This document shows, piece after piece, positions 27,811 to 32,408 of a stretch of DNA of 64,000 bases; position 1 is the stretch's first letter; the number at the start of each line of letters is the position of its first letter. A model generated the notes under the pieces. It made no database searches, was not told where the DNA came from, and was given only the letters and a program-made list of their open reading frames with translations. The position numbers and the translations under genes were made by a program. Source of the stretch: Candidatus Bathyarchaeota archaeon (GTDB lineage Archaea; Thermoproteota; Bathyarchaeia; Bathyarchaeales; Bathycorpusculaceae); NCBI GenBank assembly GCA_029881805.1, contig JAOULW010000001.1, positions 1 to 64,000 of the forward strand, written 5' to 3'.

Positions 27811-28824
27811 GTGAGGAAGATTAAAACTATTTTAGTTTTGCTAGCGATCTTGTGTGTGGCACTCCCATTTGCCGCTGCAACACTACTTACACAGACAGGC
27901 GCATCAGATGCAACACTCTACGTTGATCCGCCAAGTATTGAAGACCCGGCAATCTTGCTAGGCGACAATATTGTTATACACATAATGATTGACAGCGTAT
28001 CCGACATGAAAACTTGCGAATTCAACTTGACGTTTAGTCCAAGTGTGCTTTCAGTTTTGCGCATAACCAAACTGGCCGTTCAGGGTCAATATCCCGATTC
28101 AAAATTGGATTTGGACAGCGACAACGGATACATCTGGATCAGCCTAGTATATAAAACAGCTTTGACAATTACCACAGATACGGCGATTCTAGAAATAGAG
28201 TTCTATGTAAAGGATTATGGAGCCACTGATTTGCACTTTCAATCTTCAGAACTCTTAGACACTGGTGGAGCCCCTATTCCGCATGAAACGCGTGATGGTT
28301 TCGTGAGGATCATCTTAAGAAACATTGTGGTAAAACAGATTTCACCTACGTACAGCGAAACCTACGTAGGACGCATAATTCCAATAAACGTTACGACTCT
28401 AAATGACGGAAACATACCTGAAACTTTCACTGTCAGCCTCTTCTATGATTCGACCCTCATAGACACAATGGATGCGGTTGATCTGCCACCTACAGAAAAT
28501 ATCACAGTGACCTTCAACTGGGACACAGCTTCCGCGCCTCCTCTGATGACGCCTTACACTATCAAAGCAGAAGCAAGCACAGTGCCGTACGAAGTAAACA
28601 CGACTGATAATACGTTAGTGGATGGAACAATAAAGCTCAAGATTGTGGGTGACGTGGACGGCGATGGGGCAGTAGACATAAACGATTTAATCGCATGGGA
28701 CGATGCCTATGAAAGTCATGCTGGAGACCCTAGCTGGAATGCGCAAGCGGACATCAACAATGACAGCGTAGTTGACAAAGCTGATGCAACTCTTATATTA
28801 GACCACTATAAGGAGACGCTGTAA
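27811..28824 (+). CDS. secreted cohesin - CARDB - dockerin protein
   Basis: 337 residues: signal peptide (1-about 24, KTILVLLAILCVALPFAAA), a cohesin-like beta domain (about 33-166; CEFNLTFSPSVLSVLRI, GYIWISLVYKTALTITTDTAILEIEFYVKD), a CARDB-like adhesion domain (about 170-278; NIPETFTVSLFYD, VNTTDNTLVDGTI) and a C-terminal type I dockerin (about 281-337) with two calcium loops, GDVDGDGAVDINDLIAW and ADINNDSVVDKADATL. Extracellular scaffold or surface protein. The next gene also ends in a dockerin, so the two may form a complex. Start GTG 27811 after GGTGAAAGGA. Confidence 0.83.
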   Translation: MRKIKTILVLLAILCVALPFAAATLLTQTGASDATLYVDPPSIEDPAILLGDNIVIHIMIDSVSDMKTCEFNLTFSPSVLSVLRITKLAVQGQYPDSKLDLDSDNGYIWISLVYKTALTITTDTAILEIEFYVKDYGATDLHFQSSELLDTGGAPIPHETRDGFVRIILRNIVVKQISPTYSETYVGRIIPINVTTLNDGNIPETFTVSLFYDSTLIDTMDAVDLPPTENITVTFNWDTASAPPLMTPYTIKAEASTVPYEVNTTDNTLVDGTIKLKIVGDVDGDGAVDINDLIAWDDAYESHAGDPSWNAQADINNDSVVDKADATLILDHYKETL

Positions 28825-28917
28825 TCTTCTCTCTCTTTTTCTTTGTATGATACGGGCTGGTTTCTATTACACTAAAAAATAAATAGTAGAACTCGGTTAA
28901 ACTAGTAATGGGAGAAG

Positions 28918-31377
28918 ATGTTATTAAAGATAATTGTTCGAGTGATCGCACTAGTCTTTTTGCTGAGCATACTGACTGGGTCATCTATCGGCAACCCATC
29001 AACTATTGACTGGAGCTTAGCAAGCAACGAGATCGCGGTGCCTTCTGCGGCTTGTTCTCTTCTTTCCAAAGCAAAAGAGTACCAGCCCAGTATTGGTGTA
29101 AGCTCTGTTATCGATTATGGTGGACTTCCAAGAGTCGATGAAATTTTATATAAAGCATATCCAGGCGCTACTGTAGACACGATGGTTGATGAATTCTTGC
29201 TGGGAGTCACCGACTGGATGGCAGGCCCCGGAAGAATAGACCTATATGACCAATTGGTCGCGGCTGGTGAGAAGATTTCACCTTTCGATCCTCTACCAGA
29301 ATTCTCTTTAGCAGCGATAAACTGCAGAGATTACAAAGAAACATCGGGGACTGAAAATTTTCCCCTGAATGATAGCGCGTTCAGGTTGGCTTTGACGTGG
29401 ATTTATGGTGTTAACGACAAGCAAACCGACATTTTCGGCTATGTTGGGGCTCCATGGACTTTCGCCATCGGCAACCCTGTGCCTCCAGCGCAGAAGCCTT
29501 GGTACAACGAGAGCATACAAATGCCAGACACTGAATGGACCACTGCGTGGGATATTCTACAGGAAGCTGGCTATTATGTTAATGCAACGGACAATTGGCT
29601 ATACAAAGGTCAAACAAAACTAAGAAACATGAATATTTCGTACTCTGGCGATCTGTTCTGGGAACAAGGACCTGGAAAAGGATTTAGTGACTCTTTCAAC
29701 GAGTTTATTACCACACACGTCGGCGCCACAGGTCCAATAATGACTTTTACGCCGACATCGTTCTCTCACCTTGTTGAGGAACTTATTTTCGTCCGCAATT
29801 ACGATTTTATCTGCATTGGTTTTCCGGAAATTGGAAGATACGTCTACTGGCTATACAACTACCTACACTCAGACAGCATAAAAAGTGGAGCATGGAATTT
29901 TGCTGGCATCTCAGATTCACTATTTGATCAATGGACAATGTCGATTTTGACAAGTGTAAATGAAGATGAAGTGATTGGAAATGCATCGCTTGTGCAAGCG
30001 CGATTCGTGTACGAACTTATGCCTTGGCTACCTATTAGCTGCGAAATGACATTTTGCACGACAGCAAATGATAGTCGAGGAGAGTTAGTTGGCATTGTTT
30101 CAATGCCCAATCTTGGACCTGCAAACGATTGGAGCTGGATGACAGCTCACTGGAAGGATTCAACTGGCGGCACAGTAAAAGTAGCTTTAACCAACACAGT
30201 TCACTCAATGAACCCGTACAATGAAGACAGCGTATATGGATGGCGGATTTTGGACAGGTCAATAGCAGGACTCTTAGGCGTCAGTCCAATAACGTTAACA
30301 GAGACGCCTCTAGTCGCCACTGAATGGTCATGCACTCCATGGGTCAGCATACCTGAGCTCGGCATCGTAGACGGAACTATATTAACATTTTATCTTAGAC
30401 AGGATGTTTACTGGCATGACGGCAAACAAGTGACAGCCTACGACTGCGTAAATAACCTGAAACTTCTAAGAAAGTATAGACCAGGAAGATACGCAAGAGT
30501 TTGGGCGTCGCAGGCCTACGAAGAGGTGCAAGGTCCATACAAATTTAGCACATACTCCTACACCCAAGGTATATATTATGCGTACGACGTTGCAGATGTA
30601 GCTTTGCTTTCACCCAAACACATCACAGACGCTGCTGAAGCAATGTACGGAAGCATTCTTACAGGCTGGGACCCAGCCTTCAATTCCTACAAGGCTCTCC
30701 TAGGGGTAGATCCTCCGACTGAATATCCATTTATGAAACAGATTGTAGGATGTGGACCTTACGTCTTTGACTATTATGACAAGGACATCGACCTAGGTCG
30801 TGTAGTCAAATACGACGACTTCTTCGTTAAAGCTCCAGTCATAAGTGCGGTCGTCGGCGATTGGTGGATCGGGTCAATAGCGGCAGGGTGGGAACCATCG
30901 TTAAGTTACCCATACACGTATAAGGTGTTGGTTCAGAACATTGGAGCCCAAGCAAACTCGTCCGACAGTGAACTAGTCTCTGTGACTGTTGACGTCAAAG
31001 TATACGAGGACAATGTGCTTATGCACACTGAATCTGACATCGTCTTAGACCCATGGAGCTATACCTATCTAGGACCATACACTACAGACCCAGTAATCGG
31101 TCTACATGAAATTAAGGTTGAAATTCTCGAGTCTGGAAACGTGATACACACTTACATCCACAAGTACGTAGCAGTTGTTAGACAGGACATCACGTCATAT
31201 TCAGGCGATTTCGTAGACTGCTTCGTAGACGTCAAAGACTTGTTACGGGCTGCCATCGCATATGGAAGTTACCCAGGAAGCTCTAAATGGGATGCAGCAT
31301 GTGACATAAACGACGACTACTTCGTCGGCATCAAAGACATACTTTCAACCGTTTTTGTATACGGTTGGCATGCATAG
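28918..31377 (+). CDS. extracellular solute-binding protein (SBP_bac_5-like, apparently permuted) with CARDB and dockerin
   Basis: 819 residues with a signal peptide (1-25). The peptide-binding fold seems permuted: residues about 55-420 match the usual second half (GLPRVDEILYKAYPG, NDSAFRLALTWIYGV, AWDILQEAGY), and about 416-640 the usual first half (VHSMNPYNEDSVYGW, DGTILTFYLRQDVYWHDGKQVTAYDCV, VGCGPYVFDYYD). Then a CARDB-like domain (about 645-760; YKVLVQNIGAQANSSDSELV) and a dockerin (about 764-819; FVDVKDLLRAAIAYG, CDINDDYFVGIKDIL). No permease or ATPase genes lie near. Likely a surface-tethered peptide or sugar receptor; substrate unknown. Confidence 0.78.
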   Translation: MLLKIIVRVIALVFLLSILTGSSIGNPSTIDWSLASNEIAVPSAACSLLSKAKEYQPSIGVSSVIDYGGLPRVDEILYKAYPGATVDTMVDEFLLGVTDWMAGPGRIDLYDQLVAAGEKISPFDPLPEFSLAAINCRDYKETSGTENFPLNDSAFRLALTWIYGVNDKQTDIFGYVGAPWTFAIGNPVPPAQKPWYNESIQMPDTEWTTAWDILQEAGYYVNATDNWLYKGQTKLRNMNISYSGDLFWEQGPGKGFSDSFNEFITTHVGATGPIMTFTPTSFSHLVEELIFVRNYDFICIGFPEIGRYVYWLYNYLHSDSIKSGAWNFAGISDSLFDQWTMSILTSVNEDEVIGNASLVQARFVYELMPWLPISCEMTFCTTANDSRGELVGIVSMPNLGPANDWSWMTAHWKDSTGGTVKVALTNTVHSMNPYNEDSVYGWRILDRSIAGLLGVSPITLTETPLVATEWSCTPWVSIPELGIVDGTILTFYLRQDVYWHDGKQVTAYDCVNNLKLLRKYRPGRYARVWASQAYEEVQGPYKFSTYSYTQGIYYAYDVADVALLSPKHITDAAEAMYGSILTGWDPAFNSYKALLGVDPPTEYPFMKQIVGCGPYVFDYYDKDIDLGRVVKYDDFFVKAPVISAVVGDWWIGSIAAGWEPSLSYPYTYKVLVQNIGAQANSSDSELVSVTVDVKVYEDNVLMHTESDIVLDPWSYTYLGPYTTDPVIGLHEIKVEILESGNVIHTYIHKYVAVVRQDITSYSGDFVDCFVDVKDLLRAAIAYGSYPGSSKWDAACDINDDYFVGIKDILSTVFVYGWHA

Positions 31378-31493
31378 ATGCCTTGCTTAATCTTAAGCGA
31401 AGATGCTCAGTCAGTATTCTCCAGCATTTTTCTATAGTTTTATATTGTACACCACGTAAAGTCGTCCAAATATTCAAATCTCTAGGTGGTTGT

Positions 31494-32408
31494 ATGGAAG
31501 ATTCTAAGAATAACCGTAGCAGCATACAGGGTGATCACGAAATCTATTGTTGCGGTGCGCGCGTGCAAATTTCCCCAAAGGGCGTGAGAGTCCTAAGCGA
31601 GCCTACTGTTGAACGTTGCCCTCTACACGCAGCTATGTATGGAACCAAGAAAATCGATTCTGAAGCCGTACGGAAAAGTGTGGAAATGAAAATAGCTGGC
31701 CATGTTTTTTGCTGTGCAAGTCGTGCTTTTGACGCTGAACCCATTGTGGCATATGGAGCTTCTGAAATGATGCACGTTTGGCTTAGCGAACGACTCATCG
31801 ACTGCGCCGTTGTCGTCTGTGAAGGGACAGGGACGGTCATAACTTCAAACGGAGCACTTGTCCAAGCAATCGGCGCACGACTAACCGGCATGATCAAAAC
31901 TTCGCCTATACAACAAATTATTGAACGCATAGAAGTGGATGGTGGAGTCATTCTGGACAAAGCTAACGCACGAATTGATCAACTTGAAGGCGTGAAACGA
32001 GCTTTTGATTTAGGCTACAAATACATTGCTGTCAGTGTTGCAGGCTTTCAATCGAAGACCATCAGCGAAATTAGAGATTTTGAGGCTAGCGTTAAGGCAG
32101 ATGTCTTTGTCTTTTCAGTGTGCAACACGTGTGTACGCGATGCAGATGTGAAGCACATAGCCAAGGCGGATGTTGTATGTGCAAGTGCTTCGAAAATACT
32201 TCGAAAGGAAATCGGGAGCAAGGCACTACTACAATTGGGTGTTACAATTCCAGTCTATGCCTTGACAGAGAAGGGCAAACGGCTCGTTTTGGCCTATTTA
32301 ACCGAACTCAAAGACAAACTTGTTATTTTCAGAACAAGCAAACTGCCTTATTTGACAAAGGATAAAGGACCAAAACTCAAAGACTCTGTCAATAACCAAA
32401 ACACTTAA
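31494..32408 (+). CDS. DUF2099 family protein (methanogenesis marker protein 8-like)
   Basis: 304 residues. The start is the ATG at 31494 (RBS AGGTGG at 31484); an in-frame extension to 31365 overlaps the upstream gene's end and a TATA (TTTTATATTG at 31438-31447) and is not used. Family features: RVQISPKGVRVLSEPTVERCPLH, ASRAFDAEPIVAYGASEMM, VVVCEGTGTVITSNGALVQAIGARLTGMIKTSPI, KANARIDQLEGVKRA and ADVVCASASKILRKEIGS, matching the DUF2099 pattern first noted as methanogenesis marker 8. Biochemical function unknown. No other methanogenesis gene is seen here. Confidence 0.85.
   Translation: MEDSKNNRSSIQGDHEIYCCGARVQISPKGVRVLSEPTVERCPLHAAMYGTKKIDSEAVRKSVEMKIAGHVFCCASRAFDAEPIVAYGASEMMHVWLSERLIDCAVVVCEGTGTVITSNGALVQAIGARLTGMIKTSPIQQIIERIEVDGGVILDKANARIDQLEGVKRAFDLGYKYIAVSVAGFQSKTISEIRDFEASVKADVFVFSVCNTCVRDADVKHIAKADVVCASASKILRKEIGSKALLQLGVTIPVYALTEKGKRLVLAYLTELKDKLVIFRTSKLPYLTKDKGPKLKDSVNNQNT

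Follow-up and report, generated by a model that had tools for sequence, protein, structure and literature searches.

Two neighbouring genes in a Bathyarchaeia MAG raise the question of why an archaeal solute receptor should end in a dockerin, and whether the cohesin-bearing protein encoded just upstream is its partner. Both genes are located in the window, i.e. the whole stretch of 64,000 nucleotides that was analysed. We consider it likely that gene 1 encodes an adaptor scaffoldin and gene 2 a permuted importer receptor, in which a dockerin stands in place of the membrane helix and which is held at the cell surface via cohesins.

Gene 1 encodes a predicted cohesin adaptor

Gene 1 (27811 to 28824, plus strand) has a GTG start and encodes a 337 amino acid long protein without a membrane anchor of its own, in which a signal peptide is followed by a cohesin, a CARDB and a dockerin domain. 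The earlier note had described it as a secreted protein with these three domains, and this is borne out by three Pfam matches over the cut-offs and by the AlphaFold2 (AF2) model and its Foldseek comparison. The cohesin domain (27910 to 28311, residues 34 to 167) matches PF00963 over residues 51 to 147 (E 2.7e-6, 28.0 bits against a curated cut-off of 24.1), the Ig-like CARDB spacer (28336 to 28617, residues 176 to 269) matches PF07705 over its entire length (E 4.1e-6, above the Pfam cut-off), and the dockerin (28648 to 28821, residues 280 to 337) matches Dockerin_1, PF00404, over residues 280 to 329 (E 3.6e-5, 24.3 bits against a cut-off of 22.9). The AF2 model has a pLDDT of 90.7 and displays the nine-strand jelly-roll of a cohesin, the fold that the earlier note had proposed to look for. 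Its best structural match in Foldseek is the cohesin-X-dockerin structure 4fl4 of Clostridium thermocellum (E 3.8e-12), and its cohesin domain matches the Archaeoglobus fulgidus cohesin 2xdh and 1anu with TM scores over the target of 0.79 and 0.75, respectively. The cohesin of gene 1 is predicted to bind a dockerin.

The dockerin of gene 1 is an outlier within the genome. In gapped comparisons its mean identity is 37%, compared to 41–61% for the other dockerins, and its recognition residues differ from theirs. This divergent dockerin is conserved among the orthologues of gene 1. A similar arrangement is found in the C-terminal trimodule of CipA from C. thermocellum (4fl4), which shares the order of cohesin, Ig-like module and dockerin and likewise contains a dockerin that differs from those of the clients. 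Different from CipA, gene 1 is archaeal and encodes a single cohesin, and neither a carbohydrate-binding module nor a cellulase was found among the clients examined.

Cohesins and dockerins of the genome

The genome-wide search for further dockerin proteins that had been suggested earlier revealed at least 15 dockerin proteins and about 9 cohesins. The cohesins include membrane-anchored forms with a TM and cohesin-dockerin adaptors; one 712 amino acid protein combines two cohesins with one dockerin in the same Coh-CARDB-Doc build as gene 1. Candidates for membrane-fixed cohesins are the 231 and 563 amino acid proteins encoded on contig C8 and a 311 amino acid protein on contig C35. With a scaffoldin of several cohesins, an anchored cohesin and at least 10 dockerin-bearing clients, the genome contains a cellulosome-type layout. 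The clients scanned comprise SBPs, PKD, NosD beta-helix and zincin-like proteins, and this subset contained no glycoside hydrolase.

Gene 1 would accordingly be an adaptor scaffoldin with one cohesin, which would take dockerins of the genome's common 'VKD' type, to which that of gene 2 belongs, and its divergent dockerin would plug into another cohesin, probably one of the membrane-fixed candidates on C8 or C35. As cohesin and dockerin are both present within one chain, the dockerin might instead dock on the cohesin of gene 1 itself, so that the protein would either polymerise or close up as a monomer; in this case, gene 2 would have no relation to it. This is improbable in view of the outlier position of the gene 1 dockerin and of the recurrence of the Coh-CARDB-Doc build with two cohesins and one dockerin in the same genome. 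It is also at odds with cellulosome adaptors, in which the cohesin and the dockerin of one chain differ in specificity. Thus, we favor the adaptor function of gene 1.

Gene 2 encodes a circularly permuted substrate-binding protein

Gene 2 (28918 to 31377, plus strand) encodes an 819 amino acid long protein, read in the earlier note as a solute-binding region followed by CARDB and dockerin. The SBP_bac_5 match (PF00496, E 5.6e-19), an all-beta stalk and the homology of the dockerin support this reading. The swapped order of the two SBP halves had not been mentioned there.

PF00496 is matched as two stretches that together cover the domain in crossed order: its positions 124–283 align with residues 53–224 of the protein, and its positions 15–151 with residues 485–645. 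Based on PF00496 and on profile A1, derived from the alignment of the permuted proteins (type A) and compared with the PDB, the canonical second half is placed first (29134 to 30150, residues 73 to 411). The linker HWKDSTG (30151 to 30171, residues 412 to 418) then connects the old C-terminus to the old N-terminus, as seen in the sequence and in alignment A1, and the canonical first half follows, as placed by PF00496 (30172 to 30840, residues 419 to 641). Profile A1 matches 121 PDB chains at E<=1e-5, with E-values down to 3.7e-53 for family-5 SBPs. Among the PDB matches listed, each chain is matched in two stretches, and the order is crossed in the three alignments inspected; no permuted SBP was found among the PDB matches. 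With PF00496 and profile A1, neither gene 2 nor its paralogues nor any type-A relative displayed the canonical N-to-C order of segments. A chimeric assembly or a frame artefact is ruled out, because the same swapped order is present in paralogues on four contigs (C3, C22, C24 and C33) and in about 50 genomes.

Compared with the cluster-C/family 5 SBPs (OppA, DppA, NikA, AppA; PF00496), type A is homologous over both halves, and its relatives likewise adjoin genes for DppB, DppC and ATPase. In contrast to cluster-C SBPs, the halves are reversed, the new termini are located inside lobe I, and the new end carries a dockerin or a C-terminal TM. As judged from sequence, the SBP of gene 2 is circularly permuted, with the canonical C-terminal half ahead of the N-terminal half, and is joined to a stalk and a dockerin. 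The start of the chain would be located in the loop that follows the 'GxGPY...ydxyF' strand. The canonical C-terminal half would come next and be connected by a newly formed, short linker to the canonical N-terminal half, and the new C-terminus of the SBP would run on into the Ig-like stalk and then the dockerin.

The swapped order could also be the result of a decayed tandem duplication, leaving two SBP remnants that form no joint fold and whose role is limited to binding or structure. Loss of the outer halves from a tandem copy would produce an identical order, and Pfam positions 124–151 are covered by both halves of the gene 2 protein. Nonetheless, we regard decay as highly improbable, given that about 50 aligned sequences have a single clean break at the same conserved loop with each half occurring once, that the open frames are conserved, ancient and widespread, and that DppB, DppC and ATPase genes flank many permuted SBPs. 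The AF2 model of gene 2 is of moderate quality (pLDDT 74.7) and gives partial Foldseek matches with TM scores over the target of about 0.40–0.52. These matches are consistent with the permutation, which is not demonstrable by Foldseek because its alignments follow chain order, and do not address whether the permuted fold closes.

Gene 2 probably encodes the substrate-binding receptor of an importer of the Dpp/Opp type, with a peptide as the presumed ligand. Gene 2 itself has no importer genes beside it; its paralogue on contig C33 adjoins DppB/DppC.

The stalk of gene 2 (30913 to 31173, residues 666 to 752) consists of beta strands in the AF2 model, is CARDB-like and can be aligned with that of other type-A proteins. 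The dockerin (31186 to 31374, residues 757 to 819) was delimited by dockerin comparison and its own profile (1e-19), and is about 50–59% identical to other dockerins in phmmer and direct comparisons. A Pfam search of gene 2 recovered neither CARDB nor dockerin, and PF00404 was absent at E up to 5. The calcium ligands expected earlier for the dockerins are intact (D/N) in both loops of gene 1, DVDGDGAVDIND and DINNDSVVDKAD, and mostly so in loop 2 of gene 2, DINDDYFVGIKD, whereas loop 1 of gene 2, SYSGDFVDCFVDVKD, is degenerate and lacks the canonical ligands. Calcium-dependent binding to cohesins would be expected, and the pairings proposed here are predictions.

Dockerin and membrane helix are alternatives

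Among the type-A proteins, 23 end in a TM helix, 21 in a dockerin and none in both, and the anchor type changed at least three times on the type-A tree. Many cohesins, among them that of the window, are missed when PF00963 is used on its own, and a broader cohesin profile was therefore built. With this profile, which was seeded from dockerin-rich genomes, all 17 genomes of the dockerin group contained cohesin matches (4–21 per genome), as did one of the 32 genomes with membrane-anchored SBPs; as the genomes are related, these co-occurrences do not represent independent events. Of the 21 dockerin-SBPs, 8 have a cohesin gene in their locus, compared to none of the 23 TM-SBPs (Fisher p 0.0011). 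The mutual exclusion of TM and dockerin and the co-occurrence with cohesins, both read from sequences, indicate that in type-A SBPs a dockerin most likely takes the place of the membrane anchor. In gene 2, it would tether the receptor via cohesins at the end where homologues carry a membrane helix.

Non-cellulosomal cohesins and dockerins of archaea are known from A. fulgidus (2xdh) and ANME (PMC9012536). For ANME, dockerins on NikA/OppA-type SBPs and scaffold-like cohesin-dockerin proteins were already reported (PMC9012536), and an archaeal dockerin-SBP is therefore not new in kind. Different from these examples, the present system belongs to Bathyarchaeia and lays out anchored cohesins, adaptors and clients together. 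The SBP of the present system is permuted.

Relation between gene 1 and gene 2

The two genes are separated by 93 bases (28825 to 28917, plus strand), in which a run of pyrimidines behind the stop codon of gene 1 is followed by an A/T box, aaaaaataaatagt, at about 28873–28886. Read from the letters upstream of gene 2, this box could be a putative TATA element for that gene. In the related genomes G006 and G035, the orthologue of gene 1 is found at the same place (GcvPB ... DUF2099) without an SBP. The case for an operon is weak, because the SBP is absent from these loci and a separate A/T box precedes gene 2.

The proximity of the two genes on one strand could also reflect a dedicated pair, in which the cohesin of gene 1 binds the dockerin of gene 2 one to one. 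The cohesin genes in the loci of dockerin-SBPs count in its favor, and the dockerins of gene 1 and gene 2 are only 36% identical, so that docking of gene 1 on itself would not necessarily be in competition. We nevertheless hold such exclusivity to be doubtful: G006 and G035 keep gene 1 without the SBP, a TATA-like box precedes gene 2, and other cohesins are present in the genome. Moreover, the recognition motif of gene 2 recurs in almost every other dockerin of the genome, which makes gene 2 one client among many. Of the surface receptor array proposed in the earlier note, a cohesin-dockerin assembly at the surface is well supported genome-wide, by anchored cohesins, adaptors, many clients and the co-occurrence of cohesins with dockerin-SBPs; binding between the two neighbours would be a further step, and their adjacency is not conserved.

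Spread of permuted SBPs

Of the 299 Thermoproteota genomes sampled, at least 47 contain type A, with A1 matches that run unbroken across the junction. The hosts include Sulfolobaceae, ammonia oxidisers and Bathyarchaeia, and type A forms one clade (SH-aLRT 97) in a tree that is independent of segment order. Type B, a second permutation at a different loop, is found in Thermoproteota, haloarchaea and Alphaproteobacteria. It needs three changes on the tree; independent origins of type B are not upheld, as a single clade is compatible with the AU test (p 0.55).

SBPs of the di/oligopeptide class in Sulfolobus have an N-terminal signal peptide and a C-terminal membrane anchor. The type-A SBPs of Sul7d-bearing genomes are permuted and fit this layout, with the TM anchor where gene 2 has its dockerin. 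In the open-licence literature searched, we found neither a report on permutation of Sulfolobus SBPs nor a description of natural circular permutation of SBPs in general. Annotation pipelines label type-A proteins merely as 'substrate-binding protein'.

Conclusions

The cluster-C SBP fold has probably been permuted at least twice at different loops: type A would be old, of single origin and phylum-wide in Thermoproteota, and type B would extend to haloarchaea and Alphaproteobacteria. The tether would thereby have moved to a new face, and the new end would be an exchangeable anchor site for either a membrane helix or a cohesin-dockerin plug. The permutation is the main novelty, and this large SBP group is apparently undescribed. 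Natural circular permutation would thus occur, seemingly undescribed, in a large family of transport receptors, including those of the well-studied Sulfolobaceae and of ammonia-oxidising archaea. The new termini make it testable how a lobe-closing receptor works and why the tether moved. Furthermore, anchor exchange would provide a concrete role for the non-cellulosomal cohesins and dockerins of archaea, a question that dates from their finding in Archaeoglobus. They may serve as a detachable replacement of the membrane anchor, by which receptors and other exported proteins would be gathered on one surface scaffold.

A circularly permuted solute-binding protein

Gene 2 (28918-31377, + strand) matches the family-5 solute-binding protein (SBP) domain SBP_bac_5 (PF00496; 5.6e-19) in crossed order, with residues 53-224 corresponding to model positions 124-283 and residues 485-645 to positions 15-151. 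The crossing is clearer in a paralogue on contig C22 of the same genome, in which positions 144-364 (2.3e-24) precede positions 3-146 (3.6e-23), and another SBP, on C16, is canonical and covers positions 2-366 in one stretch. A canonical-order profile built from five archaeal SBPs revealed about 30 proteins crossed in the same way as gene 2, with the break at about model position 229 (type A), and eight crossed in another way, with the break at about position 370 (type B). A1, a profile made from 24 type-A proteins, matched 121 PDB chains at E≤1e-5. Each of the 60 chains listed was matched in two stretches, the best of which lie where crossed order requires, and the three alignments inspected were all crossed. 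On AppA (1xoc), profile positions 45-372 align with residues 211-517 and positions 383-580 with residues 19-209. The type-B profile likewise matched its listed chains in canonical places. Because both profiles meet PDB chains in canonical order, no permuted family-5 SBP was seen among the structures listed for them. Gene 2 almost certainly encodes a permuted SBP. A search of the open-licence literature found no description of SBPs permuted in nature, so an earlier one elsewhere is possible. In one SBP frame (G053:C60:4555-6393), part of the first half is repeated before a nearly full domain, possibly a partial tandem duplication of the kind that could precede permutation.

Distribution and phylogeny of the permuted forms

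Across 299 genomes sampled from the phylum, type A spans the junction in one piece in at least 47, and a near-complete type-B match is present in 18. The hosts of type-A family f29 are Sulfolobaceae and those of family f17 ammonia-oxidising archaea, as indicated by Sul7d in 9/9 and archaeal AmoA in 7/7 tested genomes, respectively; in examples from these groups viewed at full length, a signal peptide precedes the permuted SBP, which is followed by a C-terminal membrane helix (TM). Type B (examples include loci L113-L120 and L161, and others in genomes G190, G109 and G179) also occurs in haloarchaea and on plasmids of the Alphaproteobacteria Microvirga (L183:1336-3084), Nitratireductor, Neorhizobium, Roseomonas and Ketogulonicigenium. 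The Microvirga query retrieved 35 records covered to at least 80% in one place, and nearly all listed ones are single-piece. In Thermoproteota, haloarchaea and Alphaproteobacteria, type-B proteins are annotated only as ABC transporter substrate-binding proteins. In an order-independent tree of 77 SBPs and 528 columns, type A forms one clade (SH-aLRT 97), which may be favoured by the alignment being based on a type-A profile. Type B requires three changes on this tree, and an AU test is compatible with a single clade (p 0.55).

Exchange of dockerin and membrane anchor

The earlier note had gene 2 ending in CARDB and dockerin domains. Pfam names neither in the tail, but the dockerin stands by homology: over its final 52 residues, gene 2 shares about 50-59% identity with other dockerins of this genome and its relatives, and our own dockerin profile matches at 1e-19. 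Residues 666-752 are predicted to form beta strands. The expected calcium ligands are only partly retained, as loop 2 (DINDDYFVGIKD) is mostly intact, whereas loop 1 (GDFVDCFVDVKD), preceded by a conserved DIT, is degenerate.

Among 49 type-A C-termini, 23 carry a TM helix, 21 a dockerin and none both; the remaining five include at least two fragments at contig or locus ends, one borderline TM and one degenerate terminal dockerin. The tree implies at least three anchor swaps. A cohesin gene shares the locus with 8/21 dockerin-SBPs versus 0/23 TM-SBPs (Fisher p 0.0011), in loci of unequal length, with the window counted by hand since its tree row derived from a short locus. Every one of the 17 dockerin-group genomes, of which 14 encode a type-A and one a canonical dockerin-SBP and the other two a gene 1 orthologue, has cohesin matches (4-21 each). 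Among 32 comparison genomes, selected for permuted, mostly TM-ended SBPs, one has a single match and 31 have none. Since the genomes are related and partly seeded the cohesin profile, this is an association and not a count of events. The dockerin is likely to substitute for the membrane anchor. A canonical-order SBP_bac_5 protein with a C-terminal dockerin (L128:4535-6724, - strand, G025) shows that the fusion is not confined to the permuted form.

Cohesins and dockerins across the genome

Gene 1 (27811-28824, + strand) combines Cohesin, CARDB and Dockerin_1, all above the Pfam cut-off, as originally proposed. Its cohesin fold is borne out by a confident AlphaFold2 model (pLDDT 90.7), for which Foldseek ranked the cohesin-X-dockerin trimodule of C. 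thermocellum CipA first (4fl4, E 3.8e-12) and also matched the A. fulgidus cohesin 2xdh (TM-score 0.79 over the target).

The Bathyarchaeia MAG from which the window comes comprises 39 contigs and 2.2 Mb. It encodes nine cohesins by a broad profile and at least 15 dockerins, so that other dockerin proteins are indeed present. These proteins fall into three tiers. Anchored cohesins are encoded on C8 (231 aa, cohesin and C-terminal TM; 563 aa, cohesin, PKD and TM) and C35 (311 aa, cohesin and TM). Cohesin plus dockerin, the adaptor arrangement, is found in gene 1, a 712 aa protein on C8 (two cohesins, two CARDB, dockerin) and a 358 aa protein on C2 (dockerin, then cohesin). The clients comprise at least four SBPs as well as NosD beta-helix, PKD and zincin-like proteins, and nearly all client dockerins share the motif (V/I)KDLLxxAxAYGSxPG...VDVKDIL. 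The gene 1 dockerin (INDLIAWDDAYES...DKADATLIL) is an outlier, with a mean identity of 37% versus 41-61% for the others, and its odd motif is kept by the orthologues in G006 and G035. Judged from sequence, such divergence would be expected of an adaptor with a separate docking partner, and gene 1 is probably an adaptor. ANME archaea have already been reported to possess scaffold-like cohesin proteins as well as OppA/NikA-type SBPs that bear dockerins (PMC9012536); the cohesin-dockerin part therefore adds a new and well-populated example to a kind already known.

Two further loci deserve mention. At L139:5176-5748 and the next frame (G000 C10:252340-253700), a cohesin frame continues, with a shift of one, into a CARDB and NosD-like beta-helix frame, reflecting either a disrupted gene or a misassembly. 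An open frame of 4972 codons (L073:3-7916 and upstream, G000 C24) encodes a giant protein of PKD repeats with a common-type dockerin at its C-terminus.

Adjacency and proposed function

Genes 1 and 2 are separated by 93 bases on the + strand. The gene 1 orthologues in G006 and G035 (64% identical) have the same neighbours as gene 1 in the window, GcvPB and DUF2099, with no SBP between them; thus, the SBP was gained, or lost, in one lineage. The DUF2099 gene of the window (31365-32408) has a listed TTG start that overlaps gene 2 by 13 bases, and its true start is therefore probably further in. Upstream of gene 2 lie a run of pyrimidines and an A/T box, an arrangement that fits separate transcription. 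The earlier note envisaged both proteins assembling into a surface receptor array. We regard them rather as members of one system than as a dedicated pair, and direct binding of the gene 2 dockerin by the gene 1 cohesin appears somewhat doubtful.

The gene 2 receptor would be exported via its signal peptide, fold as a permuted two-lobe SBP and attach, through its stalk and dockerin, to the gene 1 cohesin or to a different cohesin sharing its specificity. The gene 1 dockerin would in turn tether the gene 1-gene 2 pair to a cohesin that is itself membrane-anchored, and ligand captured by the receptor may then be handed to a DppBC-type importer. Such importer genes adjoin many permuted SBPs, including a paralogue on C33, and none lies beside gene 2. 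The chances that the ligand is a peptide are roughly even. Two dockerin proteins (L136:3635-4948, - strand; L133:2561-3847, + strand) look like peptidases by a HEYGHH motif and, by eye, a caspase-like segment, and Pfam names no peptidase domain in either. Proteins of this appearance would suit a protein-degrading complex at the cell surface.
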